A stretch of DNA of 64,000 nucleotides from NCBI RefSeq assembly GCF_040436365.1, contig NZ_AP026369.1, positions 1,427,501 through 1,491,500 of the forward strand, written 5' to 3'. The position numbers and the translations under genes were made by a program. Below the pieces are notes generated by a model, which worked only from the letters and a program-made list of their open reading frames with translations, was not told the DNA's origin and searched no databases. Source of the stretch: Hydrogenimonas sp. SS33 (GTDB lineage Bacteria; Campylobacterota; Campylobacteria; Campylobacterales; Hydrogenimonadaceae). The stretch's first letter is position 1; every line of letters begins with the position of its first letter. Shown one piece after another: positions 8,329 through 28,644 of this stretch.

Positions 8329-8420
8329 GGTAAACAGTAAATAGTAAACGGTGAACAGAGAACAGGAAACAGATGAAGCTTTTCCATATCTGTTCACTGT
8401 TTACCGTTCACTGTTCACCG
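8329..8420. repeat. Inverted pair of degenerate heptamer arrays (RGTRAAC family)
   Basis: From 8329 to about 8371 runs a period-7 series (GGTAAAC, AGTAAAT, AGTAAAC, GGTGAAC, AGAGAAC, AGGAAAC). From about 8391 to 8419 the same family runs in the opposite orientation (TGTTCAC, TGTTTAC, CGTTCAC, TGTTCAC). The two could fold into a large imperfect hairpin with about 20 bp between them. They fill the LRV-MoxR spacer. Confidence 0.85.
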
Positions 8421-9806
8421 CTATGCCATTCCCAGGTTCTGACGGATGTACTCGCCAAAGGCTTCGTTGCGTTTTAGAATCTGGTTGAGCTCTCCGTCGG
8501 TCTGGTAAGAGAGGAGTATCTCGATGGGGGTGGCGGGGTTGGAAGCCAGGGCTTTGTGTATCTCCCTCTCCCTGATTTTCGAGAAATTTAGCAGCAGGCG
8601 CCGGGGCGTGGAGGGGTTGCCGGCCAGCGCGATATAGACCTCTTTGTCCCGCACCCGCGTCAGGCGCTCGATCATCGCTTCGGGGAGGGACAGATTCGCC
8701 GCCAGGGCGCGCAGCACCTCGGGTCGGCGGCCCTTCTCCAGCGTTTCGTACAAGGAGAGAGGCAACGCTTCGTTGGCGGCCAGTGTCTCCAACACTTGAC
8801 TCTCCCCACTTTCAAGAAGGAGCCGGTAGGCCTCCCCGTCGAGGCGAACGTTTGCCGCCAGGGCGCACAGCAGCGCCTCATCCCCCTCTTCCAGTGCCTT
8901 TTCGACATCTCCGGGTGTCAAAGGCTGCTCGGCATAGACCGCCCGGCGGACCTGTGCGTCTTTCTTTTCCAGTAGGGCCTCCCGCACCGCATCCGACAGG
9001 GCCGGGTTTCTCGCCAACCCTTCCCAACTTCGCCTCTCATCGCTTTCCAGAAGCTTTCGCTGCATCCTTTCCTCCAGCGCGGGGTGGGCGGCGGCGAAAC
9101 CTCCTTTGCGCGGGTCCGCCGAAGCGATGAACCGTTCGAGAAGCGGGGCCGGAAGTTTTGGGTTGAGCAGCAGCGATTCGTGCAGCGTTCTGGGCATCCA
9201 CGCATCCCGGCTGCGCTGGGTGATCTCGTAGTCGGGCACCTGGGCCAGAGCTTCCAGAAGCGCCGGATGTTCGGCCTGGGCCGCCACCAGAAAGAGCCCG
9301 ACGGGGGAATACTGGATATTGTGGTTCTTTTCGATTTCGGGATAGAAGCGGGCCACCACGCTCCCCGCCACATCGCGATTCTCGTCGCTTTCGTAGGGCC
9401 CCAGCCCCTCCCAGTCGTACCGTTTGAGAATCTCACAGAAGAGGTCGTCGTGGATGGCGGGGTTGTGCAGCAGGTTGATCATCCGCTCCCGGTTGGGGAA
9501 AAGAGTGAGGCTGGCGATCAGCGATTCGGCATCGATATGGGTGGCGTACCACGCCTCCAGCGCCTCCAGCGTCACCACCGGGATGCCCGCCCTCTCCCGC
9601 TCGTCGCTCCACGCCTCTTCGACCGGATTGACCAGGCGGCCCAGGACGATCATGCCGATCCCCTCCTGCTCCGTCGACTGCGCCCTTTCCGCGCCGACAC
9701 GGTCGAGAAAAAGTTCGATATCCTCTTCGCTCATGGTTCTGCTCTTGCCAAGAAAAAGCACTCTTTTGCCGGCAATGGACGCCAGCGCCTCCTCCATCGG
9801 CATCAT
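8421..9806 (-). CDS. LRV-repeat protein with BRCT-like N-terminus
   Basis: A 461-residue protein. The first about 80 residues look like a BRCT fold (LASIAGKRVLFLGKSR, then MIVLGR and IPVVTLEALEAW). The rest is an alpha-helical repeat with recurring ALA.NP..P and LL elements such as ALASNPATPIEIL, ALAGNPSTPRRLL and ALAANLSLPEAM, typical of leucine-rich variant repeats. It is probably a protein- or DNA-binding scaffold; the function is unknown. I start it at the ATG at 9806 (ATGATG), 1 bp after the ankyrin stop, instead of the longer frame from 9911, whose extra N-terminus is antisense-like Pro/Arg/Ser-rich sequence. It lies in the MoxR/VWA/macrodomain neighbourhood. Confidence 0.75.
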   Translation of the reverse strand: MMPMEEALASIAGKRVLFLGKSRTMSEEDIELFLDRVGAERAQSTEQEGIGMIVLGRLVNPVEEAWSDERERAGIPVVTLEALEAWYATHIDAESLIASLTLFPNRERMINLLHNPAIHDDLFCEILKRYDWEGLGPYESDENRDVAGSVVARFYPEIEKNHNIQYSPVGLFLVAAQAEHPALLEALAQVPDYEITQRSRDAWMPRTLHESLLLNPKLPAPLLERFIASADPRKGGFAAAHPALEERMQRKLLESDERRSWEGLARNPALSDAVREALLEKKDAQVRRAVYAEQPLTPGDVEKALEEGDEALLCALAANVRLDGEAYRLLLESGESQVLETLAANEALPLSLYETLEKGRRPEVLRALAANLSLPEAMIERLTRVRDKEVYIALAGNPSTPRRLLLNFSKIREREIHKALASNPATPIEILLSYQTDGELNQILKRNEAFGEYIRQNLGMA

Positions 9807-9807
9807 C

Positions 9808-10302
9808 TCAAAAAGGGTTCTCCATCTTCTCGGCGATCCACCTGCCCGCCCGCTCCCTGCGAAGCTTCCTGGCGAAATCGGCGGCGGTGAAACCGAACTG
9901 GTCCTCGGCATAGAGGTCCGCGCCGTGGGCGTAGAGCAGCTCCATCATCTCGATATAGTCGAAACAGGCCGCCAGCATCAGGGCCGTCATGCCGCTTTTG
10001 CGCCGGGTCGCCGCCGGGTCGATCCCCCTCTCGATGAAGAGCTTCACCAGGTCGACCCGGTTCTTCTCCACCGCCTCGTCCAGCAGGCTCACCCCCTCCT
10101 CGGTCGTCCACATCAGGTCGGCGCCCCGCTGCAATAGCAACTCCACCATCTCCCTGGAAGCGCCGCTCTTGATGGCCACCAGCAGCAGCGGCCGCCCCTG
10201 CTCGTCGACGACATTGGCATTGGAAGCGTCCAGCAACGCTTCGGCTTCGGCAACGGCATCGGCCCTCACCGCTTCGATCAATTCATTTTTTTTATCGTTC
10301 AT
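9808..10302 (-). CDS. Ankyrin-repeat protein
   Basis: A 164-residue cytosolic protein made of about four ankyrin repeats (GRPLLLVAIKSGASREMVELLLQRGA-type, EGVSLLDEAVEKNRVDLV, GMTALMLAACFDYIEMMELL, FGFTAADFARK). There is no signal peptide. It opens the cluster that continues with the LRV/BRCT protein 2 bp downstream. A TATAAT box lies 7 bp before the ATG and no Shine-Dalgarno is visible, so the mRNA may be leaderless. It is probably an interaction partner; specific targets are unknown. Confidence 0.88.
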   Translation of the reverse strand: MNDKKNELIEAVRADAVAEAEALLDASNANVVDEQGRPLLLVAIKSGASREMVELLLQRGADLMWTTEEGVSLLDEAVEKNRVDLVKLFIERGIDPAATRRKSGMTALMLAACFDYIEMMELLYAHGADLYAEDQFGFTAADFARKLRRERAGRWIAEKMENPF

Positions 10303-10308
10303 AGGAAA

Positions 10309-10314
10309 ATTATA
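10309..10314 (-). promoter_or_regulatory. -10 box (TATAAT) of ankyrin gene, apparently leaderless
   Basis: On the minus strand the order is TATAAT, six bases (TTTCCT), then ATG. Transcription would start at or within a base or two of the start codon. Confidence 0.55.
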
Positions 10315-10336
10315 GCAGCAAAAAGGAAAGCTGTTA

Positions 10337-10371
10337 TGGTTTTTTGGCTTTAGTTTTTGGTTTTCAACTTT
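10337..10371. repeat. Degenerate heptamer tract (GGTTTTT-like)
   Basis: Period-7 series GGTTTTT, TGGCTTT, AGTTTTT, GGTTTTC, AACTTTC in the spacer between hypA (downstream end) and the ankyrin gene. It is more decayed than the other arrays, so it is called with less certainty. Confidence 0.5.
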
Positions 10372-10401
10372 CGGCGCCCATCTCTTTGAAGACAGCCCGC
10401 T

Positions 10402-10743
10402 TCACTCCATCTCCAGGCTCATCAGATACATCTCCTCCCCATCGACGACGTTCGTCGCCAAACTTCCGCATTTGGGACAGGCCATGGCCAACTCTTGCAA
10501 TGTGCTTTTCGTTTTGCAGTCATGGCAGTAAACGACCAGCGGCTGGATGTTCATGATAAACTCCGCCCCGTCACAAACGGTACCCTCTTTGAAGGTATCG
10601 AAAGCCGTTTGCAGCAGGTCCGGTTCCACCCCGCTGAGCACGCCGATTTTGGTAACGACCTTGAGTATCTTGCCGGCGCCGTGTTTTGCGGCGTGCTCTT
10701 CGCACTGGTTGAGCAGCGCCTGGACAATGGAGTATTCGTGCAT
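10402..10743 (-). CDS. hypA: Hydrogenase nickel-insertion protein HypA
   Basis: A 113-residue protein with the invariant nickel-binding start MHEYSIV (Met1-His2-Glu3) and a zinc site made of YCHDC and ACPKCGS. With HypB it delivers Ni to the hydrogenase large subunit. It is the last gene of the nickel-permease-hypBCDEX-A run, 44 bp after hypX. It has the usual family length. Both hydrogenases in this window would need it. Confidence 0.97.
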   Translation of the reverse strand: MHEYSIVQALLNQCEEHAAKHGAGKILKVVTKIGVLSGVEPDLLQTAFDTFKEGTVCDGAEFIMNIQPLVVYCHDCKTKSTLQELAMACPKCGSLATNVVDGEEMYLMSLEME

Positions 10744-10787
10744 GAAGTTCCTCGTTATTTGTGTACCGGTAGATTGGCTTTCGCCTC

Positions 10788-12455
10788 TTACTTCTCAGCC
10801 CGTCTATGCCTCGCGATCCTCTCCGGCGCTCTGGCGGGGCAGACTTTGTAGACAAAATCGTGGCGCAGGCGGTGAAAATCGCTCTTTGGGTCCCAAAACT
10901 CCGGGTGCATCCGCTTCAGTTCCGCCTCTTTGCAGGCGTCGATCCTCTCCCGATCCCGCTCCAGCCGCTCTCGTTTGGCATCCAGGAGATCGTAGTAGCG
11001 ATCCTCATCCTCCAGCAGTTCTCGGCACCACTTTTTCAACGACTCCTCATACCTCTCCGCTTCGAAAAGAGCATCGATCATCCCGAGATCCTTGGCCCTT
11101 TTGGCGCTAACAGGCAGGCAAGCCTCCAGAAGCTCTTTGGCCCGCTCCTCCCCCACCCGTCCGGGCAGTGTGTAGGTATGGTATTCGCTGCCGCTTAGCC
11201 CCATGGTCTTGTAGTGGGAGTTGAGCACCACCCCCTCTCTGGCCACGGCGAAATCGCAAGCCAGCCCCAGAAAAACACCGCCCGCCCCCGCGTTGGCCCC
11301 AAAGCTCGCCATGGTGAGGATGTCGTCGGAAAAGAGAAGGGTCTCGATGAGATTGTTCATGGCGTTGATGTTGCTCCAGCCGTCCTCGCCCTGCTTTTTG
11401 CTCTCTTCGAGAATGGTCAGGTGGATCCCGTTGCTGAAAAAGTTTGGCCCGCCGGTGAGCACCAGCAGATCAACCTCGTCGCGCAGCGTCTCGACGGCAT
11501 ACTTGAGACGGATGCACTGTTCGGCGCTCATCGCCCCGTTGTAGAAGTCAAAGCCCAGATAGCCGATGCGCCCCTCCTGGACAAAGGTGATCTCTTTGAA
11601 GGTCTGCAAAGAGGGATCCACATAGAGGGGAATGCGCCGCTCCTTGATCCCCTTGAGACGCTCTTTGAGTACATAGGTCGCCGGCAGTTTGAAACGGCCG
11701 GGCTCTTTGAGATGGCTGATCCAGACCGCCCCGTCAACCGTCCCCAGGCAGATTGAGCCGTTGCGCTTGGCCAAAACCGCTTTGGGCTCGCCTCTGAGTT
11801 CCCCCTCGCTGTGGGCGCCGTAAAGCCTCACCTCCAGCCCCAAAAGCTCCTCTTCGACGCCGGGATGGTTGTCCGATGCGTTGATTTTGCGCACGATCGT
11901 CTCGGTATCGTCCCGCGTCCAGTCGATGCTTCTTTGCTCCTGGCGCACGGGGGCGTGCATCGGCTCCAGCGGTTCCTGCCACCGTGGTGAGAAACCGGGA
12001 TTGTCAAAATATTCGAGAACCTCTTCCAGCAAGCGCAGAGTCGTGACCCCCACTTCCCTACGGTAGATGCGCCCTTTCGGGCTTTCGGGGGGCATGGCGA
12101 AGCTTCCCCAGGCCCAGATGGGGCCGGCATCCATCGCCTCGACCGCCTGCAGCAGGGTCACCCCCCACGCTTTTTCATTGCGCAGCAGGGCCCAATCGAG
12201 CGAACTGGCTCCCCTGTCTCCCGGCGGCCCGGGGTGGACAACGAGGGTGGGCACGCTTTGCCAAATGCTTGCAGGCACCTTCTGCAACAGGTAGGGGCAG
12301 AGGATCAGCTTCGGCTGCCAAAGCGCCACCGCCTCTTCCATCAGCGCCGGCGTGCGGGCATACTCCACGCTCACCTCGTGCCCCAGATCTTCCAGGCGGC
12401 AGAAAACCTGTTGCGTCAGGGAGTTAAAGGCGCTGACCAGAAGAAGAATGCGCAT
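10788..12455 (-). CDS. hypX: HypX: formyl-THF to CO enzyme for NiFe-cofactor assembly
   Basis: A 555-residue two-domain protein. The N-terminal half is formyltransferase-like (MRILLLVSAFNSLTQQ start; HPGPPGDRGASSLDWALL signature; GPIWAWGSF). The C-terminal half is an enoyl-CoA-hydratase fold (ASFGANAGAGGVFLGLACD, LSGSEYHTYTLPGRVG). HypX/HoxX makes the CO ligand of the NiFe site from N10-formyl-THF under aerobic conditions, as known from Ralstonia and Aquifex proteins. I start at the ATG at 12455, 2 bp after the hypE stop, rather than at an upstream in-frame codon inside hypE. It sits between hypE and hypA. Its presence suggests hydrogenase maturation in the presence of oxygen. Confidence 0.93.
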   Translation of the reverse strand: MRILLLVSAFNSLTQQVFCRLEDLGHEVSVEYARTPALMEEAVALWQPKLILCPYLLQKVPASIWQSVPTLVVHPGPPGDRGASSLDWALLRNEKAWGVTLLQAVEAMDAGPIWAWGSFAMPPESPKGRIYRREVGVTTLRLLEEVLEYFDNPGFSPRWQEPLEPMHAPVRQEQRSIDWTRDDTETIVRKINASDNHPGVEEELLGLEVRLYGAHSEGELRGEPKAVLAKRNGSICLGTVDGAVWISHLKEPGRFKLPATYVLKERLKGIKERRIPLYVDPSLQTFKEITFVQEGRIGYLGFDFYNGAMSAEQCIRLKYAVETLRDEVDLLVLTGGPNFFSNGIHLTILEESKKQGEDGWSNINAMNNLIETLLFSDDILTMASFGANAGAGGVFLGLACDFAVAREGVVLNSHYKTMGLSGSEYHTYTLPGRVGEERAKELLEACLPVSAKRAKDLGMIDALFEAERYEESLKKWCRELLEDEDRYYDLLDAKRERLERDRERIDACKEAELKRMHPEFWDPKSDFHRLRHDFVYKVCPARAPERIARHRRAEK

Positions 12456-12457
12456 CT

Positions 12458-13459
12458 TCAGCAGATCCTCGGCAGTAGCTCCCCCGTGGGCCAATCGAGG
12501 AATCGCCGGGTTCCCCAGGGGCTGTTGAGCACCACTTTGCCGGGATACTCCCCTTTGACTTCGCCGATCCGCATCGCCGCTTCCCCGCCGGGGAAGGCTT
12601 CGAGGATCTCCAGGGCCAAAGGCACGTCGGCAGGATCCAGCGCCAGGACGAACGTTCCTTCATTGGCCAGAAAAGCGGGCTCGAAGCCCAGCAGTTCACA
12701 AATCCCCCGCACTTCGTCGCTGATGGGGATCTCCTCTTCGTCGATCTCGATGCAAAGGGCGTTGGCTTCGGCCCACTCGTTGAGCACCGCCGCCAGGCCG
12801 CCCCGTGTGGCGTCGCGCAGCGCGTGGGGCTGGATCCCCGCCTCCAGCAAGGCGGCCACCTGGGGCCAGAGCGAGGCGCAGTCGCTCTCGAGCGCACTTT
12901 CGAGCTCCATTCCCTCTCTCGCCGCGAAGATCGCCGCCCCGTGGCGCCCGATATCGCGGCTGACGATGATAGCATCACCCGGACGGATCGCCTTGATGCC
13001 GATCCCTTCGCCTTGCAACTCACCGATGCCGCTGGTGGTGATAAAGAGCCCGTCCACACTGCCTCGGGGCACCACCTTGGTGTCACCGCTGACGACGAGG
13101 GCGTCGTTGAGCGCGAGCTCTTTTTTGAGCGAACGGACGATCTTTTCGAGCGATCGCACCTCAAAGCCCTCTTCGATCACCACCGACAAAGAGAGATAGC
13201 GCGGCTGCGCCCCCATCATCGCCAGGTCGTTGCAGGTACCGCAGACGCTGAGTTTGCCGATATCCCCGCCGGGAAAAAAGAGAGGGCTGACGGTAAAACT
13301 GTCGGTGGTGAAGGCGGGGCGTTCCAGGGCCTTTAAAACCGCCGCATCTTCGCCGCGGTCCAAAATATCGTTGCCCAGATGGCGCCAGAAGAGCTCTTTG
13401 ATCAGAGCGTGGTTCTCCGCCCCGCCGTTGCCCTGGGCCAGGGTGATGCACTTTTTCAT
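12458..13459 (-). CDS. hypE: Hydrogenase maturation protein HypE
   Basis: A 333-residue member of the AIR-synthase/PurM-like family. It dehydrates the carbamoyl group that HypF places on its C-terminal Cys to give the thiocyanate used for Fe-CN. The protein ends in the required PRIC. Also visible are LAQGNGGAE, VCGTCNDLAMMGA and DATRGGLAAVLNE. Start ATG at 13459 with AAGGAAG upstream. It is followed by hypX after 2 bp and preceded by hypD after 25 bp. Confidence 0.97.
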   Translation of the reverse strand: MKKCITLAQGNGGAENHALIKELFWRHLGNDILDRGEDAAVLKALERPAFTTDSFTVSPLFFPGGDIGKLSVCGTCNDLAMMGAQPRYLSLSVVIEEGFEVRSLEKIVRSLKKELALNDALVVSGDTKVVPRGSVDGLFITTSGIGELQGEGIGIKAIRPGDAIIVSRDIGRHGAAIFAAREGMELESALESDCASLWPQVAALLEAGIQPHALRDATRGGLAAVLNEWAEANALCIEIDEEEIPISDEVRGICELLGFEPAFLANEGTFVLALDPADVPLALEILEAFPGGEAAMRIGEVKGEYPGKVVLNSPWGTRRFLDWPTGELLPRIC

Positions 13460-13484
13460 CGTCGCTTCTTCCTTTTGCACAATA

Positions 13485-16466: not shown

Positions 16467-17177
16467 ATGAAAAAGAGTGGTTCCTATATAAAAAACGGAC
16501 CGGATATCGATGAGAGATGCTTCTACTGCGCAGAAAAGCTCAACCGTCTGAAAGACGGACGCGTGCAGTGCAAGAGGTGCCGGCGGCGCTACGCCCCCAA
16601 AAAGCTCTCCCGTCAATTGGCGATGGCCTCCGCCTTCTGCCGCGACCGAAGCGCCAGAGAGGCTGCCGAAGAGCTGGGCATCAGCTACGCTACCGCCCTT
16701 CATTTTTACCAAGATCTCCGACGAAGCGTGCTGGCCCGGCTCGAAGCGGATTATGAAGCGGCCAGAGAGGAGATAGACCAATACGAAGAGACCCTCTACC
16801 TCGACCACAACAAACGGCACGACAAACGGCACATCTTCGAGGCGCAAAACTTCCTGACCTTCGCCTATGGCCCGAAGGTCTACAACATTCTTCTGCCTTC
16901 CCTGGAGCGCTACAAGCAGAGCCTCGTGGACGATGGGTTGACCCAACAGTACTGGGAAGAGTTTTCCCGCTTTCTGATCTTCCACCGCATCGCCAAACTC
17001 GAAAGCCGCGAAAACACCATCGAACGCTTCCGGCGCTATTTCGACACCTTCATGAAAAACTACCGGGGAATCAAGCGGGAGAATTTCATCTACTATCTTA
17101 AGGAAGCGGAGTTCAAGTTCAACTACGGCGACAAGGCTTTCGACACCCTGGTCGAGCTTATGCGTCAAGGCCGTTAA
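16467..17177 (+). CDS. Zinc-ribbon/HTH protein, transposase-like N-terminus; possible regulator
   Basis: A 236-residue protein. Residues about 15-75 resemble the N-terminus of IS1595-type transposases: a zinc ribbon (CFYC ... CKRCRRRYAPKK) followed by a helix-turn-helix (SAREAAEELGISYATALHF). No DDE catalytic domain follows; the rest is helical and charged, with Tyr/Phe and Arg-rich repeats. AAGGAAG precedes the ATG at 16467. It is divergent from the nickel permease/hyp operon and overlaps the 3' end of hypF tail-to-tail by 20 bp. I infer a domesticated DNA-binding protein; regulation of the hydrogenase genes is a guess from position. Confidence 0.65.
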   Translation: MKKSGSYIKNGPDIDERCFYCAEKLNRLKDGRVQCKRCRRRYAPKKLSRQLAMASAFCRDRSAREAAEELGISYATALHFYQDLRRSVLARLEADYEAAREEIDQYEETLYLDHNKRHDKRHIFEAQNFLTFAYGPKVYNILLPSLERYKQSLVDDGLTQQYWEEFSRFLIFHRIAKLESRENTIERFRRYFDTFMKNYRGIKRENFIYYLKEAEFKFNYGDKAFDTLVELMRQGR

Positions 17178-19455
17178 GCCCCCACCACACCTGCCCCAAA
17201 GAGACGGCGGCGTCGTTGGGTGGGAGTCGGCGCGGTAGAAACACGTTGCGTTTTTGCAATCGCGGCAGAAGCCTCTCCATCAAGGTCCGGTTCTGAAAAA
17301 CACCGCCGGCAAGGATGACCGGCAGGTCGGGATAGCGCCCGCAGAGCGCAACGACCGTTGCGGCCAGCCCGTCGATAAAGGCCGAGGCCGAAACCTCCTG
17401 CCCCCCGATCAAACGCCTCAGCAGCGGTTCCCAATCGATGATGCCATCTTTAAGTACCAGTAATTTTCCATCTTCCATCTTCCATTTTCCATCTCTAATA
17501 GCCTGCGCTTCCAGCAACAAACCGCTCTCCCCTTCGTAGCTCACCTCCTGGCAAAGCCCCGTCAAAGAGGCCACAGCATCGAAAAGCCGGCCCATGGAGC
17601 TGGTGATCGGCGCATTGGCCTTTCGCGCCCAGGCTCTGTGCAGCAGGCGGATCTCTTGGGGGTCGAAGGTGGCGACCGTCGGGCTCTTTAGCGCCAGCAC
17701 CTCCTCCAGGCCCAAAAGCTCGAAAAGCATCCCCAACGCCGCGCGCCGGGGCTCCCTGACCGCCTTTTCGCCGCCAAGCAGTCGGAAGGGGCGCAGCGAG
17801 GCGACGCGTTCGTAAGCGTTGGCATCGCACAGCAGCGCCTCTGCGCCCCAGATCGTTCCATCCTCTCCATATCCGGTGCCGTCCCAGACGATCGCCAGGG
17901 CGCTGTCGCGCCAACCATGCTCCGCCATCACCGCCAGGGCGTGGGCGTAATGATGCTGTATTTTTTGAAGTGAAAGGCAAGAGGTATGAGGCGCTTCGAT
18001 TCTGTTTTGGGCCCATTTGGTGCTTTCATAGCCCGGGTGCAGGTCGCTGACAATAATTTCTGGCTTGAAATCATAGAAACGTTCGAAGGTTTTGACAGTG
18101 CGATCGAAGTACTCCACCGCTTCGATCCCGGCCAAATCCCCAATATGGGGGCTCACAACGATTTTGTCATCCAGGGCCAGGGCGATGGTGCTCTTTTGGT
18201 TGGCCCCCACACCCAGAAGCGGTTTTTCGACCTTTCTCTCAAGAGGCAGTGTCAACGGCGCAATTCCCCGGGCCACCCGCAGCCACTGCACCCTGCCGCC
18301 CACAAGCTGCGCCACGCTGTCATCGCAGGCGTTGACAATCTCCCGGTTATGATCGAGCATGGCATCAACCACATGGCCCAGTTTCAGACGAAGCGCCTCC
18401 CCGTCACGGATGATCGGTTCGTCGCTGAGATTGGCGCTGGTGGCGACAAGAGGTACATCCAAAAAGTCAAAGAGTAAATAGTGCAGCGGCGTATAAGGGA
18501 ACATCAAACCGATGCGGTCGATCCCCGGAGCGACAGGGGAGTGTCGGATTTTGGATTTTGGATTTCGGCGTTTTCGCATCAGGACGATGGGGCGCTCTTT
18601 GGAAAGCAGCAGCGCCTCTTCGTCCGCGTCGATCTTCGCCAGCCTCTTGGCCACTTCCAGATCTTTGACCATCAACGCGAAGGGCTTGGAGGGGCGGCGT
18701 TTGCGGCGGCGCAACTCGGAAACCGTCTCGGCATTCGTGGCGTCGCAGAGCAGATGAAAGCCTCCCAGCCCCTTGACGGCGACGATCTTTCCCTCCCGGA
18801 TCATACAGGCTGCTTCCTTGATCAGCCTGTTCTGCTCCCCATCTTCCATCCTCCATCTTCCATCTTCCATCTTGTGCCAAAGCTCCAGAACCGGCCCGCA
18901 TTCCGGGCAGGCGATGGGCTGGGCATGGTAGCGGCGGCTGGAGGGGTCTTCGTATTCGATCCGGCATCTTTCGCACATCGGAAATTCGGCCATGGAGGTA
19001 TTGGGCCGATCGTAGGGGACGGTACGGATGATGGAGTAGCGGGGGCCGCAATCGGTGCAGGTGATAAAAGCGTGCCCAAAACGCCGGTCGTCTGGGTCGC
19101 GCATCTCTTTCAGGCAGGCATCGCACACGGCCATGTCGGGACTGACGGCTGTCGATTTTTCGGACTTGGCGCTGGAAGAGAGAATCTCGAAGCCTACATA
19201 CCCAGAGGCCGGGACTGCCCGTACCTGCATCTCGTCGATACGGGCCAAAGGGGGAAGCTCCGCGGGCAGTGTTTCCAAAAACCCCTCCAGCGCGCTCTCT
19301 TTGCCTTCGATGAGCGCTTCGACCCCTTTTTCGTCGTTTCGGACATAGCCGCCAAGCCCGTAACGTCTGGCCAGTCGGTAAAAATAGGGCCGGAAGCCGA
19401 CCCCCTGAACGATGCCGGTGATCGTGAGGTGAAAGGCGGAAATCTTTTGGGGCAT
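17158..19455 (-). CDS. hypF: Carbamoyltransferase HypF
   Basis: A 765-residue protein that uses carbamoyl phosphate to carbamoylate HypE, the source of the CN ligands. Domains in order: acylphosphatase (about 6-95, GIVQGVGFRPYFYRLA), two zinc fingers (CDACLKEM...CTDCGPR, CERCRIEY...CPECGP), YrdC-like (about 220-390, VKGLGGFHLLCD) and Kae1-like (about 395-765; QKIQHHYAHALAVMAEHG, ILAGGVFQN). Three loops contain heptamer-repeat DNA translated as KMEDGRWRMEDGE, NPKSKIRHS and KWKMEDGK; each keeps the frame and lies between conserved blocks, so the enzyme is probably functional. It follows hydE and overlaps a convergent gene by 20 bp. Confidence 0.96.
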   Translation of the reverse strand: MPQKISAFHLTITGIVQGVGFRPYFYRLARRYGLGGYVRNDEKGVEALIEGKESALEGFLETLPAELPPLARIDEMQVRAVPASGYVGFEILSSSAKSEKSTAVSPDMAVCDACLKEMRDPDDRRFGHAFITCTDCGPRYSIIRTVPYDRPNTSMAEFPMCERCRIEYEDPSSRRYHAQPIACPECGPVLELWHKMEDGRWRMEDGEQNRLIKEAACMIREGKIVAVKGLGGFHLLCDATNAETVSELRRRKRRPSKPFALMVKDLEVAKRLAKIDADEEALLLSKERPIVLMRKRRNPKSKIRHSPVAPGIDRIGLMFPYTPLHYLLFDFLDVPLVATSANLSDEPIIRDGEALRLKLGHVVDAMLDHNREIVNACDDSVAQLVGGRVQWLRVARGIAPLTLPLERKVEKPLLGVGANQKSTIALALDDKIVVSPHIGDLAGIEAVEYFDRTVKTFERFYDFKPEIIVSDLHPGYESTKWAQNRIEAPHTSCLSLQKIQHHYAHALAVMAEHGWRDSALAIVWDGTGYGEDGTIWGAEALLCDANAYERVASLRPFRLLGGEKAVREPRRAALGMLFELLGLEEVLALKSPTVATFDPQEIRLLHRAWARKANAPITSSMGRLFDAVASLTGLCQEVSYEGESGLLLEAQAIRDGKWKMEDGKLLVLKDGIIDWEPLLRRLIGGQEVSASAFIDGLAATVVALCGRYPDLPVILAGGVFQNRTLMERLLPRLQKRNVFLPRRLPPNDAAVSLGQVWWGLNGLDA
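17466..17493. repeat. Heptamer tract TTCCATC x4 inside hypF
   Basis: Four consecutive units (one with a terminal T) in frame within the Kae1-like part of hypF. On the coding strand it reads as the Asp/Gly/Lys/Trp/Met-rich peptide KWKMEDGK. Same unit as the 18837-18871 tract. Confidence 0.9.
18546..18566. repeat. Heptamer tract GGATTTT x3 inside hypF
   Basis: Two exact copies and one variant (GGATTTC), in frame in the YrdC-like part of hypF. They encode the NPKSKI peptide between RPIVLM and the conserved GLMFPYTPLH block. Confidence 0.85.
18837..18871. repeat. Heptamer tract TTCCATC x5 inside hypF
   Basis: Five units, the first two imperfect (CCCCATC, TTCCATC, CTCCATC, TTCCATC, TTCCATC), in frame in the linker between the zinc fingers and the YrdC-like domain. 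Because 3 x 7 bp equals 7 codons, the peptide repeats as KMEDGRW/RMEDGEQ. Confidence 0.9.
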
Positions 19456-21538: not shown

Positions 21539-21553
21539 TCGAATCCTTTTTTT

Positions 21554-21690
21554 TAAGTAAGAGATAAGAGGCAAGAAGTAAGAGAAAACGGATTGAAAGG
21601 CATTCCCGGTTCTGTTTTGCCTCTCGCCTCTCCTCTTCCCTCTCTTACCTTTTACCTTTTATCTCTTGCCTCTCTTACTTTTTCCCGGGC
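21554..21690. repeat. Inverted pair of degenerate heptamer arrays in the hydC-hydD spacer
   Basis: From about 21554 runs AAGTAAG, AGATAAG, AGGCAAG, AAGTAAG. From about 21615 to 21690 the opposite orientation occurs (TTACCTT, TTACCTT, TTATCTC, TTGCCTC, TCTTACT). They fill the otherwise compact hydC-hydD junction and can form a long imperfect hairpin in the mRNA. Confidence 0.75.
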
Positions 21691-21705
21691 AAAACCCCGG
21701 GACCA

Positions 21706-22422: not shown

Positions 22423-24168
22423 TTAGACGGAGCAGCTGGTGCTGACCTTGAAGCTGCCGAGCTCCTTGCCCTTGGTATCGACGATATGCACCGCACAGGC
22501 GATACAGGGGTCGAAGCTGTGGACCGTGCGCAGGATCTCCAGAGGCTGCTCGGGATCGGCCACCTTGGTGCCGATCAGCGCCGCTTCGTAGGCTCCCATC
22601 CGCCCCTTGCCGTCACGGGGCGAGGCGTTCCAGGTGGAGGGGACGACCGCCTGATAGTTTTCGATCTTGCCGTCCTTGATCTTCACCCAGTGGCCCAGGG
22701 CACCCCGGGGCGCTTCGGCCAAGCCGTACCCTTTGGCGTCTTTGCTTACGGCGTCGAAATCGAATTCGGTCCAGGTACTGTGATCCCCCGCTGCAACGTT
22801 GGCGGCCAGTTCGTCGATCCACTCCATCATCACGTCGGCCATCAGCTCCGTTTCGATCGCCCTGGCCGCGGTCCGACCCACGGTGGAGAAGAGCACGCTC
22901 GCCGGCGCCGCCTTACCCAGGCCGAGCAGGCCGCCCAGCCGGTCGAGGAAGCCCATGACGTACTTGGTGATCCGCTCATCTTTGGAGGCGACGCCGACCA
23001 CCATGCGCGCCAGCGGCCCCACTTCCACGCGATGGTCGCCGTAAACGGGCGCCTTGATCCAACTGTACTTCTCATCGGTTTTCAGATATGCCAGCCCATC
23101 CTCTTTTTTCTCCAGCCCGGTATATTTGGGGTTGGTGGTTCCGTCGAAGGGGTGCTGGGGCGCCGGTGCGTCGTACCAGCTGTGGGTCACGTCTTCGGTC
23201 ACTTTGGCCTGGTCAAAAGGATAAACCTTGCTCAGGTCGCCGTTGAGCACCACGCCGCTCGGGAAAAGTAGGGCCGCTTTGTAGAAATCGTTGTCATCCA
23301 GCCGGAAATCGCCATAGGTCATATAGTTCTTCAGACCGGCGCCAGTCCCATCGAGCGCTTCGTCGGCGTAGACCGTACCCGCCATAGCGATATCGGGCAG
23401 ATAGGCGTTCTTGATGAAGTTTCGCGCTTTGACGAGAATCGATTTGAATTCGGCGTTGCGGGCGGGGTTCTGGATATCCTGCACACAGGTGACTCCGCCG
23501 ACGACAATGCTCTGGGGGTGGGGCATCTTGCCGCCGTAGATCGCCATCAGCTTGGACATATCCCGCTGCATATCCAGGGCCTGAAGATAGTGGGCCACCC
23601 CGATCAGGTTCTGCTCGGGGGTCAGCTTGTAGTGCTTGTTGCCCCAGTAGCCGTTGGCGAAGAGCCCCAGGCGGCCCTGCTTGACGAACTTTGTCAAACG
23701 CTCCTGAATCTGAATCAGATCCGATTTGCTGGTGCCGTAAGGGGTTTTGGTCCACTTGTAGGATTCCGCTTCCGCCTTGGCGGGGTCCGCTTTGAGGGCA
23801 CTGGTGATGTCGATCCAGTCCAGGCCGTGCAGGTGGTAGAAGTGGACGACGTGGTCGTGAATGTAGAGCGCACCCTGCAGCAGGTTGCGCACCAGGCGGG
23901 CGTTTTTCGGGATCTTGACCTTGAAGGCGTTCTCCACAGCCTCGATGGAGCGCTGGTAGTGGGTACCGGTACAGACGCCACAGATCCGCATCGCTAGCAA
24001 TCCGGCATCCCTGGGGTCGCGGCCTTTGAGGATCGTCTCGATCCCGCGGAACATCGTCGAACTGGCGTAGGCATCCTTGATGACGTTGTTTTCGTCGATC
24101 ACCGCTTCGATACGAAGGTGCCCCTCGATGCGGGTAATGGGGTCTACTATGATATGTTTGCTGCTCAT
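22423..24168 (-). CDS. hydB: [NiFe]-hydrogenase large subunit HydB
   Basis: A 581-residue catalytic subunit. The four Ni-binding Cys are in RICGVCTGTH (N-terminal) and DPCIACAVH (C-terminal). After that His come 16 residues (IVDTKGKELGSFKVSTSCSV-like tail), which HydD should cleave. Overall sequence is of the membrane-bound uptake type (group 1). With HydA it oxidises H2 on the periplasmic side; export is by piggyback on the HydA Tat signal. GGAGGAGAAATAACG precedes the ATG, 2 bp after hydA. Confidence 0.97.
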   Translation of the reverse strand: MSSKHIIVDPITRIEGHLRIEAVIDENNVIKDAYASSTMFRGIETILKGRDPRDAGLLAMRICGVCTGTHYQRSIEAVENAFKVKIPKNARLVRNLLQGALYIHDHVVHFYHLHGLDWIDITSALKADPAKAEAESYKWTKTPYGTSKSDLIQIQERLTKFVKQGRLGLFANGYWGNKHYKLTPEQNLIGVAHYLQALDMQRDMSKLMAIYGGKMPHPQSIVVGGVTCVQDIQNPARNAEFKSILVKARNFIKNAYLPDIAMAGTVYADEALDGTGAGLKNYMTYGDFRLDDNDFYKAALLFPSGVVLNGDLSKVYPFDQAKVTEDVTHSWYDAPAPQHPFDGTTNPKYTGLEKKEDGLAYLKTDEKYSWIKAPVYGDHRVEVGPLARMVVGVASKDERITKYVMGFLDRLGGLLGLGKAAPASVLFSTVGRTAARAIETELMADVMMEWIDELAANVAAGDHSTWTEFDFDAVSKDAKGYGLAEAPRGALGHWVKIKDGKIENYQAVVPSTWNASPRDGKGRMGAYEAALIGTKVADPEQPLEILRTVHSFDPCIACAVHIVDTKGKELGSFKVSTSCSV

Positions 24169-24170
24169 CG

Positions 24171-25394
24171 TTATTTCTCCTCCTCTTTTTTACCTGCTGT
24201 AGCGCTGATGGCGGCGTGGATGGCGATCCCGACGCCCGCGGCGGTCAAAAGCCCCAGCCCGAACTCATCGACGCTCTTCTCGACCCCGCCGGTGGGCGCT
24301 TTGATATTGGCGTCGGCCATCGGGCGCTCGTAGGCGTATTTATCCCAGAACTGCGGTTCGGAACAGCCGATACAGCCGTGCCCCGCGCCGATGGGCCAGT
24401 TGGTGCCGCTGTTGTAGCGGACGATGGAGCAGTTGTTGAAGGTCATCGGGCCCTTGCAGCCCATCTTGTAGAGGCACCAGTTGTTCTGGGCCCCTTCGTC
24501 ACCCCACTCCTCGACAAACTCGCCCGCGTCGAAGTGCGCCCGGCGCTCGCAATTGTCGTGGATGCGGTATCCGAAAGCGAATTTGGGGCGGTTGAGATGG
24601 TCGAGCTCCGGGATCTGGCCGGTAAGCACGAAATGGAGAATGGTTCCGGTGATGTTGGCCGGGTTGGCGGGGCAGGCGGGAATGTTGATGATGGGCTTGC
24701 CCTTGACGATATCCTGCACCCCCACGGCGCCGGTGGGGTTGGGCGCGGCGGCAGGCACCCCGCCAAAGGTGGCGCAGGTTCCCACCGCGACCACGGCGGC
24801 GGCATCTCCGGCGACTTTGAGCAGGTGCTCCTCGAAGGTCTCCGCTTTGGCCCCGATGGTGCACCACTCTTTCCCCGCCCCGATGGGCACGGAACCTTCC
24901 ACGACACAGAGGTATTTGCCCTTGAAGGTTTTCATGGTCTCTTCAAGATGAGCCTCGGCCTGATGGCCCGCCGCCGCCATCAGGGTTTCGTTGAACTCCA
25001 GGTCGATGGTTTCGAGAATCAGTTCATCGATCGTCGGAGAGTCGGAACGCAAAATCGCTTCGGAGTTGCCAGCGCAATCTTGCAGCTCGATCCAGATGAC
25101 CGGCACCCGGTTCATCAACTCCGCCGCTTCGGCGACCAGCGGCGTGAAGGAGGCGGGCAGCATCAGCATCGCCGTGATCGCGCTGGCCCACTTCATGAAG
25201 TCCCGGCGGCTCAGCCCTTCGGCATCGAGCACCTTCTGAATGTCCACTTTCGTGGCCGCTGGCGACTCTCTTAGTTCGCGCAGGCGCTTTTGCATCATCT
25301 TTTTCAGCCTGTCGTAATAGGCCTCACCCCGATTGGTATTGACCCTCACCCCTTTGGCGCTAAACATCTTGGCCAATGCGTCACGTCTGTCCAT
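24171..25394 (-). CDS. hydA: [NiFe]-hydrogenase small subunit HydA (Tat-exported, membrane-anchored)
   Basis: A 407-residue Fe-S subunit. A long N-terminal extension precedes the Tat motif SRRDFMK at about 62-68 and its hydrophobic stretch. A C-terminal helix (FGLGLLTAAGVGIAIHAA) anchors it. Distal (HDNC ... WCLYKMGC) and medial (GHGCIGCSEP) cluster ligands are present. In the proximal cluster the usual CxxC is DCAGNSEA: the second Cys is Asn (codon AAC). VGTCATFGG and IPACPAN supply the other two Cys. GGAGG precedes the ATG, and a TetR-type dyad lies in the promoter. Wolinella HydA has the normal CTGC as I recall it. Confidence 0.96.
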   Translation of the reverse strand: MDRRDALAKMFSAKGVRVNTNRGEAYYDRLKKMMQKRLRELRESPAATKVDIQKVLDAEGLSRRDFMKWASAITAMLMLPASFTPLVAEAAELMNRVPVIWIELQDCAGNSEAILRSDSPTIDELILETIDLEFNETLMAAAGHQAEAHLEETMKTFKGKYLCVVEGSVPIGAGKEWCTIGAKAETFEEHLLKVAGDAAAVVAVGTCATFGGVPAAAPNPTGAVGVQDIVKGKPIINIPACPANPANITGTILHFVLTGQIPELDHLNRPKFAFGYRIHDNCERRAHFDAGEFVEEWGDEGAQNNWCLYKMGCKGPMTFNNCSIVRYNSGTNWPIGAGHGCIGCSEPQFWDKYAYERPMADANIKAPTGGVEKSVDEFGLGLLTAAGVGIAIHAAISATAGKKEEEK

Positions 25395-25408
25395 CTGATA
25401 CCTCCGAA

Positions 25409-25430
25409 TGAATAATCATTCACCATTTTA
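25409..25430 (-). promoter_or_regulatory. hydA promoter with TetR-type operator TGAATGATTATTCA
   Basis: Minus strand: a probable -10 (TAAAAT, 25425-25430) is followed after two bases by the dyad TGAAT-GATT-ATTCA at 25409-25422, then the GGAGG of hydA. It matches the 16416-16429 dyad at 12 of 14 positions. A-tracts upstream (25435-25510) may help as an UP element. The -10 choice is uncertain, since an AT-rich alternative lies slightly upstream. Confidence 0.65.
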
Positions 25431-25522
25431 GAGGGCTGATTTTTAAAAACGACTGAAATTTTGGCTATTTCGATAAATTTTTTATAAATTTTTTAATTTC
25501 TTATTTAAAAAACGGACCGGCG

Positions 25523-26788
25523 CTACTTTGTCGTACAGACAGAACAGACGTCGAAGGCTTTGAAAACCAATTCGGCAGGGTCGTTTCGCTGCAAACCCAT
25601 CAGCGCTTTCTGGGCCGGACAGGGGTTTTCACGTGTACCGTTTCCCAGATTCCACTGCGTCGGCGTGACGATCTGATAGCGCGAAATTCTCCCCTCTTCG
25701 ATCGTCACGCGGTGAATCAACGACCCGCGCGCCGCTTCGACGATACCCGTTCCCTGCGCGCTGGCGGGAAAGGGGCCCGGATCGGTATAGGAAGCCTCCG
25801 ACAGGTCCAGCCCGTCACAGAGCGTTTCGAGGTAGCGCAGAAGCCGCGGCACTTCGCAAATTCTGGCCAAGATGCGGCTAAAGAGCGAATCTTTGTACCG
25901 GCGGTGGGCTTCGCGAATCAGCGGCGTCTTCAACACCATCGCCCTGGCCAGCGGACCGGTTTCATAATAGCGCCCGCGGTAACTGACACGCTTTGCGGCA
26001 TTGCCCTCGAGCGCCTCCTCTTTGAGATAGCGCAGGTTGATCGACTCTTGCAGCCGGGTGCCGATCGACTTGCCCTCCGTAAAGAGCCCTCCCCCGCCGA
26101 ACACGATGAAGTGGTCCAGGCTCTGCCCTACCCGCTCCCACCCTCGTTTCAAGATATGGCGCATCGCCCGGGGAAGATCCCCCTCTTTAGAGAGCATCTC
26201 TTCGATCCGCTCGCACCGGACGAACGCTTCGAGATCCACGTCGATGAGGCTTTGTCGAAAAAGCAGTTTCAAACGCTCAAGCCTCGCCCTGAACTCCAGA
26301 AGATCCACCGGCGTGATCTCGCCGGTAATCCCGCCGGGGATGGCGTAACTGTTGTGGGGGTACTGCCCCGCCATCAAGGCGATCATCTCTCCCGCCAGCC
26401 TGGAAGGCTCCAGCGCCCGCTGTATCGGCGCCTCCAGCCCCAAAAGCGGGAGCACCGTCAAGTAGAACCATTTGAAATGGTTCTGAATCAGCTCCAGGCT
26501 CAGCGTCATTTCACGAACCGCTTCGGCCTTTTGGCTCAAAGGCACACGCTCGAAACAATCCTCCAGCGCCCGAACGGTGGCTATCAGGTGGGCATGTCCA
26601 CAGATGCCGCACACCCTCGGATTGATCACCAAAGCATCCAACGGCTCACGCCCTTGAAGGATCTTCTCGATGTGCCGGCTGTTCAAAAAACGTATCTGCG
26701 CAAAAGAGATACGCTCCCCTTCATATTCATAGAGCACCTCCGCTTCGCCTTCGATCTTCTCGATCAGCTCCAGACGGGTGCGGGCCAT
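25523..26788 (-). CDS. hupV: Cytosolic [NiFe]-hydrogenase large subunit, HupV/group-2-like
   Basis: A 421-residue large subunit with N-terminal RVCGICGHAH. The C-terminal motif is FDVCSVCTTK at the very end: the Pro of DPC is Val, the terminal His is Lys, and there is no cleavable tail. That is typical of H2-sensing or cytosolic group-2 enzymes that skip HydD processing. Start ATG at 26788 overlaps the small-subunit stop (ATGA); the longer frame from 27133 is antiframe sequence. It shares an operon with a TetR regulator and the small subunit. The role may be H2 sensing or soluble H2 oxidation; no HupT kinase gene is in the window. Confidence 0.88.
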   Translation of the reverse strand: MARTRLELIEKIEGEAEVLYEYEGERISFAQIRFLNSRHIEKILQGREPLDALVINPRVCGICGHAHLIATVRALEDCFERVPLSQKAEAVREMTLSLELIQNHFKWFYLTVLPLLGLEAPIQRALEPSRLAGEMIALMAGQYPHNSYAIPGGITGEITPVDLLEFRARLERLKLLFRQSLIDVDLEAFVRCERIEEMLSKEGDLPRAMRHILKRGWERVGQSLDHFIVFGGGGLFTEGKSIGTRLQESINLRYLKEEALEGNAAKRVSYRGRYYETGPLARAMVLKTPLIREAHRRYKDSLFSRILARICEVPRLLRYLETLCDGLDLSEASYTDPGPFPASAQGTGIVEAARGSLIHRVTIEEGRISRYQIVTPTQWNLGNGTRENPCPAQKALMGLQRNDPAELVFKAFDVCSVCTTK

Positions 26789-27660
26789 CACTCCTCCTCC
26801 ATCAAAGGCTTGTAAAAACGCTCGATACGAAAGGCCTTGGCGATCCCCGCCAACGTAAGATAGGCCCTGCGCGGAACCCCCAAAGGCATCCGCACAGGGA
26901 TACCCATATGTTTCGGCGTCGACCACAGCCCCTCTTTCGGAAAGTCGGGTTCGGTACACCCCATACAGGGCTGGCCGTTGCGGGTTTTGGAGTTGAGGCC
27001 ATTCCAGAGAATTTTGTTGCAGCTTCCGTGGGTGTAGGTTCCCTGGCATCCGTGTTCGTAGAACATGCACCCCTCCAGCGTGCCGAAACGGTGTTCGTCG
27101 ATTTTGTATTCGAAATACTCGTTGCGGGTGCACCCGTCGTGCACGGTATAGGCATAGTAATACTTTGGGCGCCGGAGTTCATCGAGAGGAATGGGCTCCC
27201 CCGCCGCAAGCAGGGAGAGGGTGCCCGCGAGCGCTTCCGGCTGCACGGGGCAGCCCGGAAGGCTGATGCTCTTTTGCCAAAACCACTCGTACTCCCCGCG
27301 GCGTGCCTCGCCGCAAAAATGGACACCGGTTCGGCCCGCTTCCCCTTTGGCGAAAATGCCGCCGAACGTCGCGCAGGTGCCGACCGTGAGGATATGCTTC
27401 GCCTCCGTGGCGTAACGCTCCAGAAGTTCGGAAAACGGGCGCCGATGCTTCAGCAGGTTTTGCTCCAGCGTCCCATCCACAATCAAGACATCGCACCCCT
27501 TAACCCCATCTTCAACCTCTTCAAAGGTATGCAGTGAGGGCAGAAGGGGATGGTAGAGCCACTCGAAACCCTTTTGCCACTGCTCATATTGGGGGTAGTT
27601 GAGAAGCGAATGGACGTTGCCATTGCAACTGAGCGCCGAAAGCCAGAGAAGACGCATCAT
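26788..27660 (-). CDS. hupU: Cytosolic [NiFe]-hydrogenase small subunit, HupU/group-2-like
   Basis: A 290-residue Fe-S subunit without Tat signal or membrane anchor, so cytoplasmic. The proximal site reads SCNGNVHSLL, with Asn where most small subunits have the second Cys. VGTCATFGG and LPGCPVQ provide further ligands. Distal (HDGC...GCMFYEHGCQG) and medial (CMGCTEPDFP) motifs are present. It starts ATGATG, overlapping the TetR stop by 4 bp. It pairs with the large subunit directly downstream. Confidence 0.9.
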   Translation of the reverse strand: MMRLLWLSALSCNGNVHSLLNYPQYEQWQKGFEWLYHPLLPSLHTFEEVEDGVKGCDVLIVDGTLEQNLLKHRRPFSELLERYATEAKHILTVGTCATFGGIFAKGEAGRTGVHFCGEARRGEYEWFWQKSISLPGCPVQPEALAGTLSLLAAGEPIPLDELRRPKYYYAYTVHDGCTRNEYFEYKIDEHRFGTLEGCMFYEHGCQGTYTHGSCNKILWNGLNSKTRNGQPCMGCTEPDFPKEGLWSTPKHMGIPVRMPLGVPRRAYLTLAGIAKAFRIERFYKPLMEEE

Positions 27661-28286
27661 TGCGCTTTGAGGGCGTTGTAGATGTTGGTGGCGATGTCAT
27701 CGGTATAGGCATCCAGGCTCTGGGGCAGAATCTTTTCGCCGGCAAGAAAAACCATGCCGCCCAGATACCCCATAAAAAGGCCGAAAGCGCTGAAAAAATC
27801 CTGGTTTTTCAGTTCGCCTCTCGCGACGCCGTCATCGAAAAAGATCATGATTTCGGTTACAAAATCGTTGACACAGATCATCCCTTCGCACCCCTGCCCG
27901 AACACCTCACGGTTGGAGAGGTAGACCCTCAGAAAAAAATCGATCATCTCCGGCTCTTTTTCCGCCGTATCGAAATAGATTTTTACGATCTGCTTTATCT
28001 TCTCTCTGCTGGAGATATCCTGGTCGTTGATCCGTCGTATCTGTTGCCCGAGATGGGCGGAGATAGTTTTGAGAATCTCCTGCGCCAAAATCTCTTTGGA
28101 AGGAAAATAGTTATAGATATTCCCAGCACTCATACCGATGGATCCTGCGATATCGGGAATCGTCGTCGAATAGAACCCTCGTTGGGCAAAAAGTTTCAAT
28201 GCACCCGATATGATCTGAAGACGGCGCTCGGTTTTGTTTGACTGTTTCAATATGCACCTACCGACATCGGAATAGTTTAGCAGCAC
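27657..28286 (-). CDS. TetR-family transcriptional regulator
   Basis: A protein of up to 209 residues with an N-terminal TetR HTH (ISGALKLFAQRGFYSTTIPDIAGSIGMSAGNIYNYFPSKE, helix 3 in SAGNIYNYF) and a helical ligand-binding C-terminus. The start is uncertain: GTG at 28286, or TTG at 28247, which gives a more usual N-terminus (KQSNKTERR) and has AGGTG before it. A perfect dyad CCGATGTCGG lies between the two. It is the first gene of the hupUV operon. It is the only TetR in the window and hence the best candidate to bind the TGAAT-n4-ATTCA dyads before hydA and the hyp operon. Confidence 0.88.
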   Translation of the reverse strand: MLLNYSDVGRCILKQSNKTERRLQIISGALKLFAQRGFYSTTIPDIAGSIGMSAGNIYNYFPSKEILAQEILKTISAHLGQQIRRINDQDISSREKIKQIVKIYFDTAEKEPEMIDFFLRVYLSNREVFGQGCEGMICVNDFVTEIMIFFDDGVARGELKNQDFFSAFGLFMGYLGGMVFLAGEKILPQSLDAYTDDIATNIYNALKAQ

Positions 28287-28329
28287 AATTTCGAAAAATT
28301 TTATGAAGTTTGCAATGCCTTATATCGAT

Positions 28330-28335
28330 ATTATA
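28330..28335 (-). promoter_or_regulatory. -10 box (TATAAT) of the TetR-hupUV operon
   Basis: Minus-strand TATAAT with a CCGACA-like -35 16 bases upstream. The transcript would start near 28323. No TGAAT-n4-ATTCA dyad is seen here, so autoregulation, if any, would use another site such as CCGATGTCGG at 28261-28270. Confidence 0.5.
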
Positions 28336-28453
28336 TCTTTTTTCGCCATTTTGTCGGCGGTACAACAAAGCTTTCGACGATGGTAGTAAGTCCAATAATC
28401 CGTCTCGACACTGCAAAACAGAGAGTGGCGGAAGAAAAAATTCGAATAGGCGG

Positions 28454-28530
28454 TGGTGACCCCGGCGCGATTCGAACGCGCGGCCTTCGGATTAGGAATC
28501 CGATGCTCTATCCAGCTGAGCTACGAGGTC
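28454..28530 (-). tRNA. tRNA-Arg (anticodon CCU)
   Basis: Cloverleaf read on the minus strand: acceptor GACCTCG pairs with CGGGGTC, anticodon loop TTCCTAA, T-loop TTCGAAT, encoded CCA. A run of T follows about 10 bases downstream. It stands alone between the TetR operon and fusA. Confidence 0.95.
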
Positions 28531-28613
28531 TTTTTTTAAGAAGTGGGAAAAGAGAGGGATGGTTTCGTTTTGTCCCAAACCGGGACCGGGGAAGAGTGAA
28601 GCGCCCTCCCCTT

Positions 28614-28644
28614 CCGTTCACTGTTTACAGTTCACCGTTTACCT
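28614..28644. repeat. Degenerate heptamer tract (CGTTCAC/TGTTTAC)
   Basis: Four units with period 7 (CGTTCAC, TGTTTAC, AGTTCAC, CGTTTAC), directly next to the fusA terminator. Same family as 8329-8420 and one base from the 5301 array. Confidence 0.7.

Follow-up and report, generated by a model that had tools for sequence, protein, structure and literature searches.

Heptamer arrays of Hydrogenimonas keep their period and differ in their words between species, and some belong to a dispersed composite element

The stretch under study is a 64-kb window (G000:C1:1427501-1491500, hereafter the window) of the 2.25-Mb single-contig genome of Hydrogenimonas sp. SS33 (G000). It carries arrays of tandemly repeated seven-base units, between genes as well as inside them. 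Comparison of 18 genomes of the genus, that is G000 and 17 others (G001 etc.), reveals that arrays at orthologous sites keep their period and not their word, and that two of the window's arrays are arms of one composite element with 23 core matches in G000. Nine period-7 sites had been named in a sequence-only reading of the window. We scored them by runs of self-match at lag 7 and related each score to E, the number of segments with at least that score expected in the predicted non-coding part of the window (6,027 bp), according to 200 first-order Markov resamples. The split into coding and non-coding DNA follows a simple longest-open-reading-frame rule. Six of the nine sites are clear, two (28614 and 55850) make weak tracts, and the one at 10337 (10342-10364; score 8, E 1.1) was dropped as chance. 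Unless stated otherwise, features of the window are given on the forward strand. The names hypF, manC and gmd come from database matches; frr, pyrE, mfd, dnaX, fcl and sdhA/frdA were read from sequence.

The strongest tracts flank a common core. On its left lies an array of about 19 AGTGAGC units (5301..5437; 100% matches in Tandem Repeats Finder (TRF), score 130, E 0), found at the same place beside the core in other copies, and on its right an array of 11 CCAATGA units (5523..5601; TRF, score 72, E 0). The 85-bp core itself (5438..5522) starts with the hairpin ATCAGC-GAA-GCTGAT and ends with GCGAATCATTCTCAACGC. This first hairpin is visible in the fold, the whole core stretch having a z-score of -1.7. 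The 3´ end of the core (5500-5522) resembles a putative Fur box. A third array, recognized by TRF and by comparison of copies, consists of 14-base (2 x 7) units with CTAACGAC (5598..5631). The core has 23 matches in G000 (two of them partial; a further composite-like site with truncated core, G000:1307397, is not counted) and none in the 17 other genomes (E <= 0.001). The statement that the tracts do not represent one transposable sequence thus fails for 5301 and 5524, both being arms of one dispersed element. At the window's composite site, only 19 bases in G001 and 11 in G002 separate the aligned flanks, so the composite is missing there; G017 carries a different short inverted pair.

The general order of the composite is [AGTGRGN]n, hairpin, core, [CCAATGC]n[CCAATGA]m, second hairpin and CTAACGAC-type array. 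The second hairpin, GGGGC-GAA-GCCCC, is present in 16 of 23 copies and is missing from the copy in the window. Where present, left arrays are nearly pure within a copy and vary in their word among copies (GGGTAGT in 7, GAGCAGT in 7, GAGAAGT in 5 and others in 4 of the 23). Pure arrays reach 20 units, some copies have a left array of one or two units only, and one truncated copy has none. For the 19 copies with the three main words, mean core identity is independent of the left word (0.841 between copies with the same word, 0.836 between copies with different ones; a difference this large arises in 461 of 2000 shuffles). Right arrays of mixed composition are block-wise in 7 of 7 cases, with CCAATGC-type units adjoining the core and CCAATGA-type units outside. 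We take this pattern to reflect a spread of copies first and homogenisation of their arrays on site thereafter. In one copy (G000:C1:272743-272803), about 200 bp of unrelated sequence with inverted ends splits the element; this insert is probably itself a small mobile element. Phage and plasmid origins of the core were both discarded: its end motif GAATCATTCTCAACGCGC matches four viral contigs with no arrays nearby, and no core match was found in a plasmid collection. Two viral contigs carry a stretch similar to the 3´ end of the core, again without arrays.

The remaining sites of the window are simpler. Upstream of an AAA ATPase gene lies an inverted-pair element composed of a purine-rich arm of RGTRAAC units (8330..8372; score 20, E 0.005) and a pyrimidine-rich arm of GTTCACT units (8390..8420; score 14, E 0.015 for 8390-8418). 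Another purine-rich arm, of AAGTAAG-type units (21558..21583; score 11, E 0.115), is partnered by a pyrimidine-rich arm of CTTACCT-type units (21619..21673; score 20, E 0.005). A single GTTCACT/GTTTACC tract (28616..28643; score 11, E 0.115) is weak alone, its word being of the common GTTCACT type. Further tracts are of CGGGAAT type (50458..50485; score 13, E 0.015) and TTCCCGT type (53838..53887; score 21, E 0.005). The site at 55853..55918 is a hairpin with arms CACTGGG and CCAGTGG-CCAATGA, weak as a tract (55889-55918; score 9, E 0.53). Of the large hairpins claimed at 8329, 21554 and 55850, folding against 200 shuffles bears out two. The segment 8329-8420 folds far more stably than its shuffles (z -5.9, 0/200) and so does 55850-55925 (z -4.65, 0/200), in contrast to the unremarkable 21550-21695 (z -1.3, 20/200). 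A search of the window with Rfam 15 returned six tRNAs above gathering score and nothing at the tracts.

Orthologous spacers give the most direct view of how the arrays change. The sequence-only reading had allowed that tracts conserved base for base would point to functional elements; the same-site differences described below therefore mean that the tracts are not conserved in this manner. In the spacer upstream of the AAA ATPase (MoxR) gene (window 8309-8420), relatives have CCAATCA, AAAATGG/AGAATTG, GAAGAAT, AGTGAAA or GTAAGTT repeats, or no spacer at all. These arrays were identified by eye at 7 of the 13 loci, in one case with just two copies (a further locus consists of N); two of those in relatives score 10 and 14. 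The 3´ spacer of the sdhA-type gene bears arrays scoring at least 11 in 5 of 13 genomes, after exclusion of the G003 and G007 orthologues, which are cut by contig ends. The words are GGTGAAC (G000), GGAGAAT/GGATGGA (G001), CGGGAAA (G017), GAGAATC-like (G013) and GGGAATC (G014), all on the same purine strand. Between frr and pyrE, arrays scoring at least 9 are present in 6 of 17 genomes and the genes nearly touch in 8 of 17; G000 and G017 have inverted pairs around a similar hairpin core. At one orthologous site (site 4), the number of units differs, with about four AGTGAAA units in G000 and one in G017.

The same behaviour is found within genes. Three strong tracts that had not been listed before lie in frame inside hypF (window 17158-19455), all on the reverse strand: a CCATCTT-type array (17463..17494; score 19 for 17463-17492), a GGATTTT array (18546..18573; score 14 for 18546-18568) and a CCATCTT array (18839..18873; score 24). 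The close pair G004/G011 has arrays (score at least 14) at the same three loops, with different words: AAGATGG in G000 vs GAATGGA, AAATCCA vs CTTTTAC and AAGATGG vs AGTGAAA. In G017 the third loop bears an array of score 11 and the first loop a weak one, the arrays of G001 are weak, and hypF of G002, G003, G016 and G010 (partial sequence) contains no lag-7 segment scoring 8 or more. In a loop of mfd, arrays scoring at least 11 occur in 4 of 14 genomes, with the words ATCCAAA (G001), ATCCATC (G003), CGGGAAT (G000) and CGGAAAT (G017); by our reading they would share register and ATC. The mfd loop of G016 holds 1.4 copies of ATCCAAA and looks like a contraction, G016 being the sister of G003 in a tree of Mfd and the SdhA-type protein, several deeper supports of which are low.

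The region G001:C1:1660000-1705000 contains a dense run of 31-35 bp arrays within mfd, dnaX, manC, fcl and gmd. Arrays of CATTCAA type, a common word, occur in manC, fcl and gmd of G001, all within 12 kb; the G017 orthologues contain no lag-7 segment with a score of 7 or above. The effect on protein length differs from case to case. The second manC array of G001 lies in a stretch absent from 2qh5 (14 residues) and from G017 (15), and Gmd of G001 is 10 residues longer than E. coli 1DB3 and just 3 longer than that of G017. G017, without an array, equals G001 in length at the first manC site and exceeds it at the last fcl array. Arrays therefore occupy loops of variable length, and an array need not be an added piece. 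Since such in-frame loops of housekeeping genes harbor arrays, no regulatory role is needed to keep them.

The period is not a peculiarity of the window. A process that creates or copies 7-mers had been expected to leave a sharp lag-7 peak in intergenic DNA, and such a peak is present. We counted lags in one 400-kb sample of G000, with intergenic DNA as predicted. (A second 400-kb sample, chosen for its composite copies, was excluded from these counts and used for inverted pairs, word sharing, orthologous sites and polarity.) The intergenic part of the first sample has 34 lag-7 segments with score at least 9, against a shuffle mean of 0.6. Lags 14, 21 and 28 have 24, 26 and 16 segments, and every other lag from 2 to 28 has at most 9. 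At score 14 and above, 28 segments remain at lag 7; the non-multiples of seven between lags 4 and 30 have 2 between them. Relatives show the peak as well (G017 14 vs 0.4 and G001 13 vs 0.2 in shuffles; G013 and G004, in smaller samples, 4 each vs 0). No peak was seen in small samples of G002 and G012, and none clear in G016 (4 vs 0.8). In the whole genome of G000, allowing up to two mismatches, AGTGAACAGTGAAC is found at 259 places and the reversed word at 88. G000 arrays prefer non-coding DNA, with 28 segments in the roughly 42 kb (including 5,000 N) that lie outside predicted genes vs 6 in 358 kb of predicted coding sequence. G001 is the opposite, with 25 segments in predicted coding sequence and 4 outside; there, at score 14, the 25 lag-7 segments of coding sequence compare with 4 or fewer at any other lag not divisible by three, lag 14 (14 segments) excepted. 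Spacers between divergent genes are not depleted in arrays (8/128 vs 29/365 other spacers, p 0.70).

According to the sequence-only reading, length was the only constant of these tracts. This proved too narrow, as the purine strand, the register and several words also recur, some of them across phyla. Between sites of G000, the words AGTGAAC, AGTGAGC and CCAATGA recur, as does the purine-rich strand. Polarity was assessed for neighbouring arrays within 120 bp, composite excluded, using 44 pairs from the genus and 80 pairs among the listed loci of other phyla, which were picked by the RGTGAAC word itself and include many metagenome-assembled genomes (MAGs), with taxa taken from record titles. 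Where both members are clearly skewed, in opposite directions, the purine-rich array precedes the other in 15 of 16 genus pairs and in 20 of 21 pairs of the listed loci. At these loci, partners are more alike in inverted than in direct orientation (50 vs 14, with 16 ties), which also applies to G001 (8 vs 1), G017 (3 vs 1) and the smaller samples (4 vs 0). A stricter count of 81 tracts found an inverted partner for 18, a direct partner for 3 and some other array within 200 bp for 29.

Among the matches listed, and with no control, three copies of RGTGAAC occur in Cyanobacteria, Bacteroidetes, Acidobacteria, Chloroflexi, Gemmatimonadetes, Desulfobacteraceae, Nitrospirae, Cloacimonadota, Patescibacteria, a spirochaete, an actinomycete and others. 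Three copies of CCAATGM were found in 10 of 49 cross-phylum genomes drawn from the listed matches, at 318 places, and the reversed word in 5 genomes at 13 places. The carriers are nine cyanobacteria (out of 10 cyanobacterial genomes searched) and one deltaproteobacterial MAG. Words shared by G000, compared with reversed-word controls, number 8 vs 5 with cyanobacteria, 14 vs 8 with other phyla, 8 vs 4 with G017 and 14 vs 4 with G001, a modest excess except for the larger one with G001, and a measure too noisy at two copies.

We suggest, at somewhat better than even confidence, that all these are one population of heptamer arrays under concerted evolution, in which unit length and register are inherited and the word drifts. 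An array would gain or lose whole 7-base units through slippage or unequal exchange, and a mutated unit could sweep the entire array, leaving it locally homogenised as observed in the composite family. We infer such steps because the word changes at a fixed period, variants are arranged block-wise, length differs by units, and word and core are independent. Arrays might disperse in two ways, either as the two arms of small intergenic hairpin elements, a purine-rich one before the loop and a pyrimidine-rich one after it, or as parts of the composite with its 85-bp core, which does require some step of dispersal. Because arms of a pair can share words, hairpin-templated repair or template switching may operate between them. 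Several points weigh against this proposal. Slippage, template switching and mobility are inferred as molecular steps, and slippage alone does not yield seven. The recurrence of AGTGAAC, CCAATGA and AGTGAGC in other phyla is unexpected under free drift. Paired arms of G000 (composite excluded) are not more alike when inverted (11 vs 11). Some genic arrays cause no net insertion, as G017 without an array has the same length at the first manC site and nearly the same near gmd. Within genes the frame must be preserved as well, which excludes single-unit steps and calls for multi-unit or one-step changes. Finally, MutL (PF01119) was not found in any of the 18 genus genomes, in comparison with its presence in 11 of 14 control genomes. 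The lack of MutL is permissive for slippage; as array-rich (G000, G001, G004, G013, G014 and G017) and array-poor species alike are without it, mismatch repair does not explain the difference between them, and its loss was set aside as the cause. A Y-family polymerase was set aside likewise, being present in 14 of 18 genomes, rich and poor, the four without it being 76-82% complete.

Plain replication slippage favoured at seven, with each array arising locally and none dispersed, is the simplest alternative. Heptamers are over-represented among long simple repeats of many bacteria, for which a polymerase footprint has been proposed (Mrazek 2007 as cited in PMC4692102, PMC4679880), and the pure arrays of up to 20 units would suit such a process. 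It accounts poorly for the 23 matches of one composite core, for words recurring between distant sites and phyla, and for the purine-then-pyrimidine order of skewed neighbours, and we regard it as rather unlikely. The arrays might instead be footprints of a sequence-directed process common to many phyla, in which a conserved replication or repair enzyme would lay down and renew 7-base arrays, purine-rich strand first, with AGTGAAC, AGTGAGC and CCAATGA as recurrent words and the period as a property of the enzyme and not of the DNA; we consider this quite unlikely. A related idea of the sequence-only reading was a reverse-transcription effect. G000 does encode one RVT_1 domain (G000:C1:388429-389025), and a reverse transcriptase or another templated polymerase might in principle write heptamers. 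The only other match in the genus is in G009 (2 of 18 genomes in total), and the array-bearing G001, G004, G013 and G017 have none. A reverse transcriptase is thus out as the required writer, and templated writing in general seems to us very improbable.

Selection offers a different explanation, namely that the arrays are functional elements, such as RNA or DNA hairpins serving termination, RNA binding or nucleoid binding, for which the 7-base spacing would matter and the word would not. Several sites have arrays in more than one species, the hairpins at 8329 and 55850 are strong, and polarity is shared. The in-frame arrays within mfd, hypF, manC, fcl and gmd are hard to reconcile with such roles, as are the many relatives lacking arrays at the same sites and the undepleted divergent spacers, and we find this account unlikely. 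Lastly, these could be classical mobile elements of the miniature inverted-repeat transposable element (MITE) or repetitive extragenic palindromic (REP) type, moved by a transposase and ending in heptamer arrays by chance. The dispersed composite, the hairpins, the composite-free spacers in relatives and a single Y1_Tnp match in G000 agree with that. A shared core is evident for the composite family only, and Y1_Tnp, present in 8 of 18 genomes, has no match in G017 and G004, both of which possess inverted pairs. A Y1 transposase was accordingly dropped as the required writer, and mobility of the classical kind appears improbable.

Bacterial heptamer repeats are already known, and so are repeats of fixed length and variable sequence in Bacillus. 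A close likeness is offered by the G-rich heptameric repeats of Xanthomonas and Nostoc, GGGAATC and GGGGA(C/T)T (Rehm et al. 2015, PMC4692102). As described there, they have period 7, a bias to intergenic DNA and single or inverted-pair arrangement, some being intragenic, and the GGGAATC repeats have a polarity which, put in other words, matches the one here. Their sites are kept between two related species in 83% of cases with varying length and sequence, and they lie nearer the 5´ neighbouring gene irrespective of its orientation (PMC4692102). That study deals with one word family per genome and focuses on G-quadruplexes (PMC4692102). Hydrogenimonas differs in having many words per genome, word differences at the same site, in-frame arrays in housekeeping genes and a composite with core. 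The avoidance of divergent spacers reported for the Rehm repeats (PMC4692102) is not reproduced here. A GGGAATC-like unit is not general in our material: CGGGAAT is confined to some sites (window 50458, the mfd loop of G000, the sdhA spacer of G014), and most listed words are without a G run.

The tandem repeats of Bacillus (Subirana and Messeguer 2021, PMC8161180) have units of 52 or 20-21 nt, constant in size and variable in sequence. They resemble the present arrays in that unit length is fixed and sequence is not kept between families; for the 52-nt class, the account suggests selection via a protein or RNA needing constant spacing and not sequence. Unlike in those repeats, as far as described (PMC8161180), the unit here is seven and the change of word is visible at orthologous sites. 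The TAACTGA repeats of Beggiatoaceae, Cyanobacteria and Bacteroidetes (MacGregor 2015, PMC4679880) are likewise dispersed heptamer arrays common to distant phyla, some within reading frames. According to that source, they differ in consisting of one word, whose relatives are rarely repeated, and in lying mostly just 5´ of start codons. In the Nostoc tRNA-Leu intron, the P6b stem is built of 7-nt motifs, and its NNTGAGT class was repeatedly replaced by TDNGATT (PMC4476775); that is a single intron locus, and similar behaviour occurs here at several loci of one genus, coding loops included. Geobacter metallireducens has a multicopy element of four heptanucleotide repeats, dispersed in 49 copies, with consensus GGACCGG and a proposed regulatory role (PMC2700814); as in our case, they are inter- and intragenic, at times more than one per gene. 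For cyanobacteria three heptanucleotides in Calothrix are cited, and for Campylobacterota one, GTGATTA in Helicobacter pylori (both in PMC4692102). Among the literature matches listed, nothing concerned heptamer arrays in Hydrogenimonas or the composite element. The short tandemly repeated repetitive (STRR) sequences of cyanobacteria are reportedly heptamer arrays too (Mazel 1990), and CCAATGM in three copies occurs in 9 of the 10 cyanobacterial genomes searched.

What is new is the turnover of words in place and the composite family. One genus serves here as a natural experiment, in which the same spacer or loop presents the same period with other words, and empty or contracted states alongside. 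Comparison at the same site separates copied sequence from copied unit length, so that rate and step size become measurable. It also speaks against the need for a conserved binding sequence or a reverse transcriptase. Arrays in Mfd, HypF and the sugar-nucleotide enzymes suggest a route by which proteins may gain or change loop peptides. The excess of heptamers has long been noted without an agreed explanation; the question of why the unit is seven can now be tested directly.

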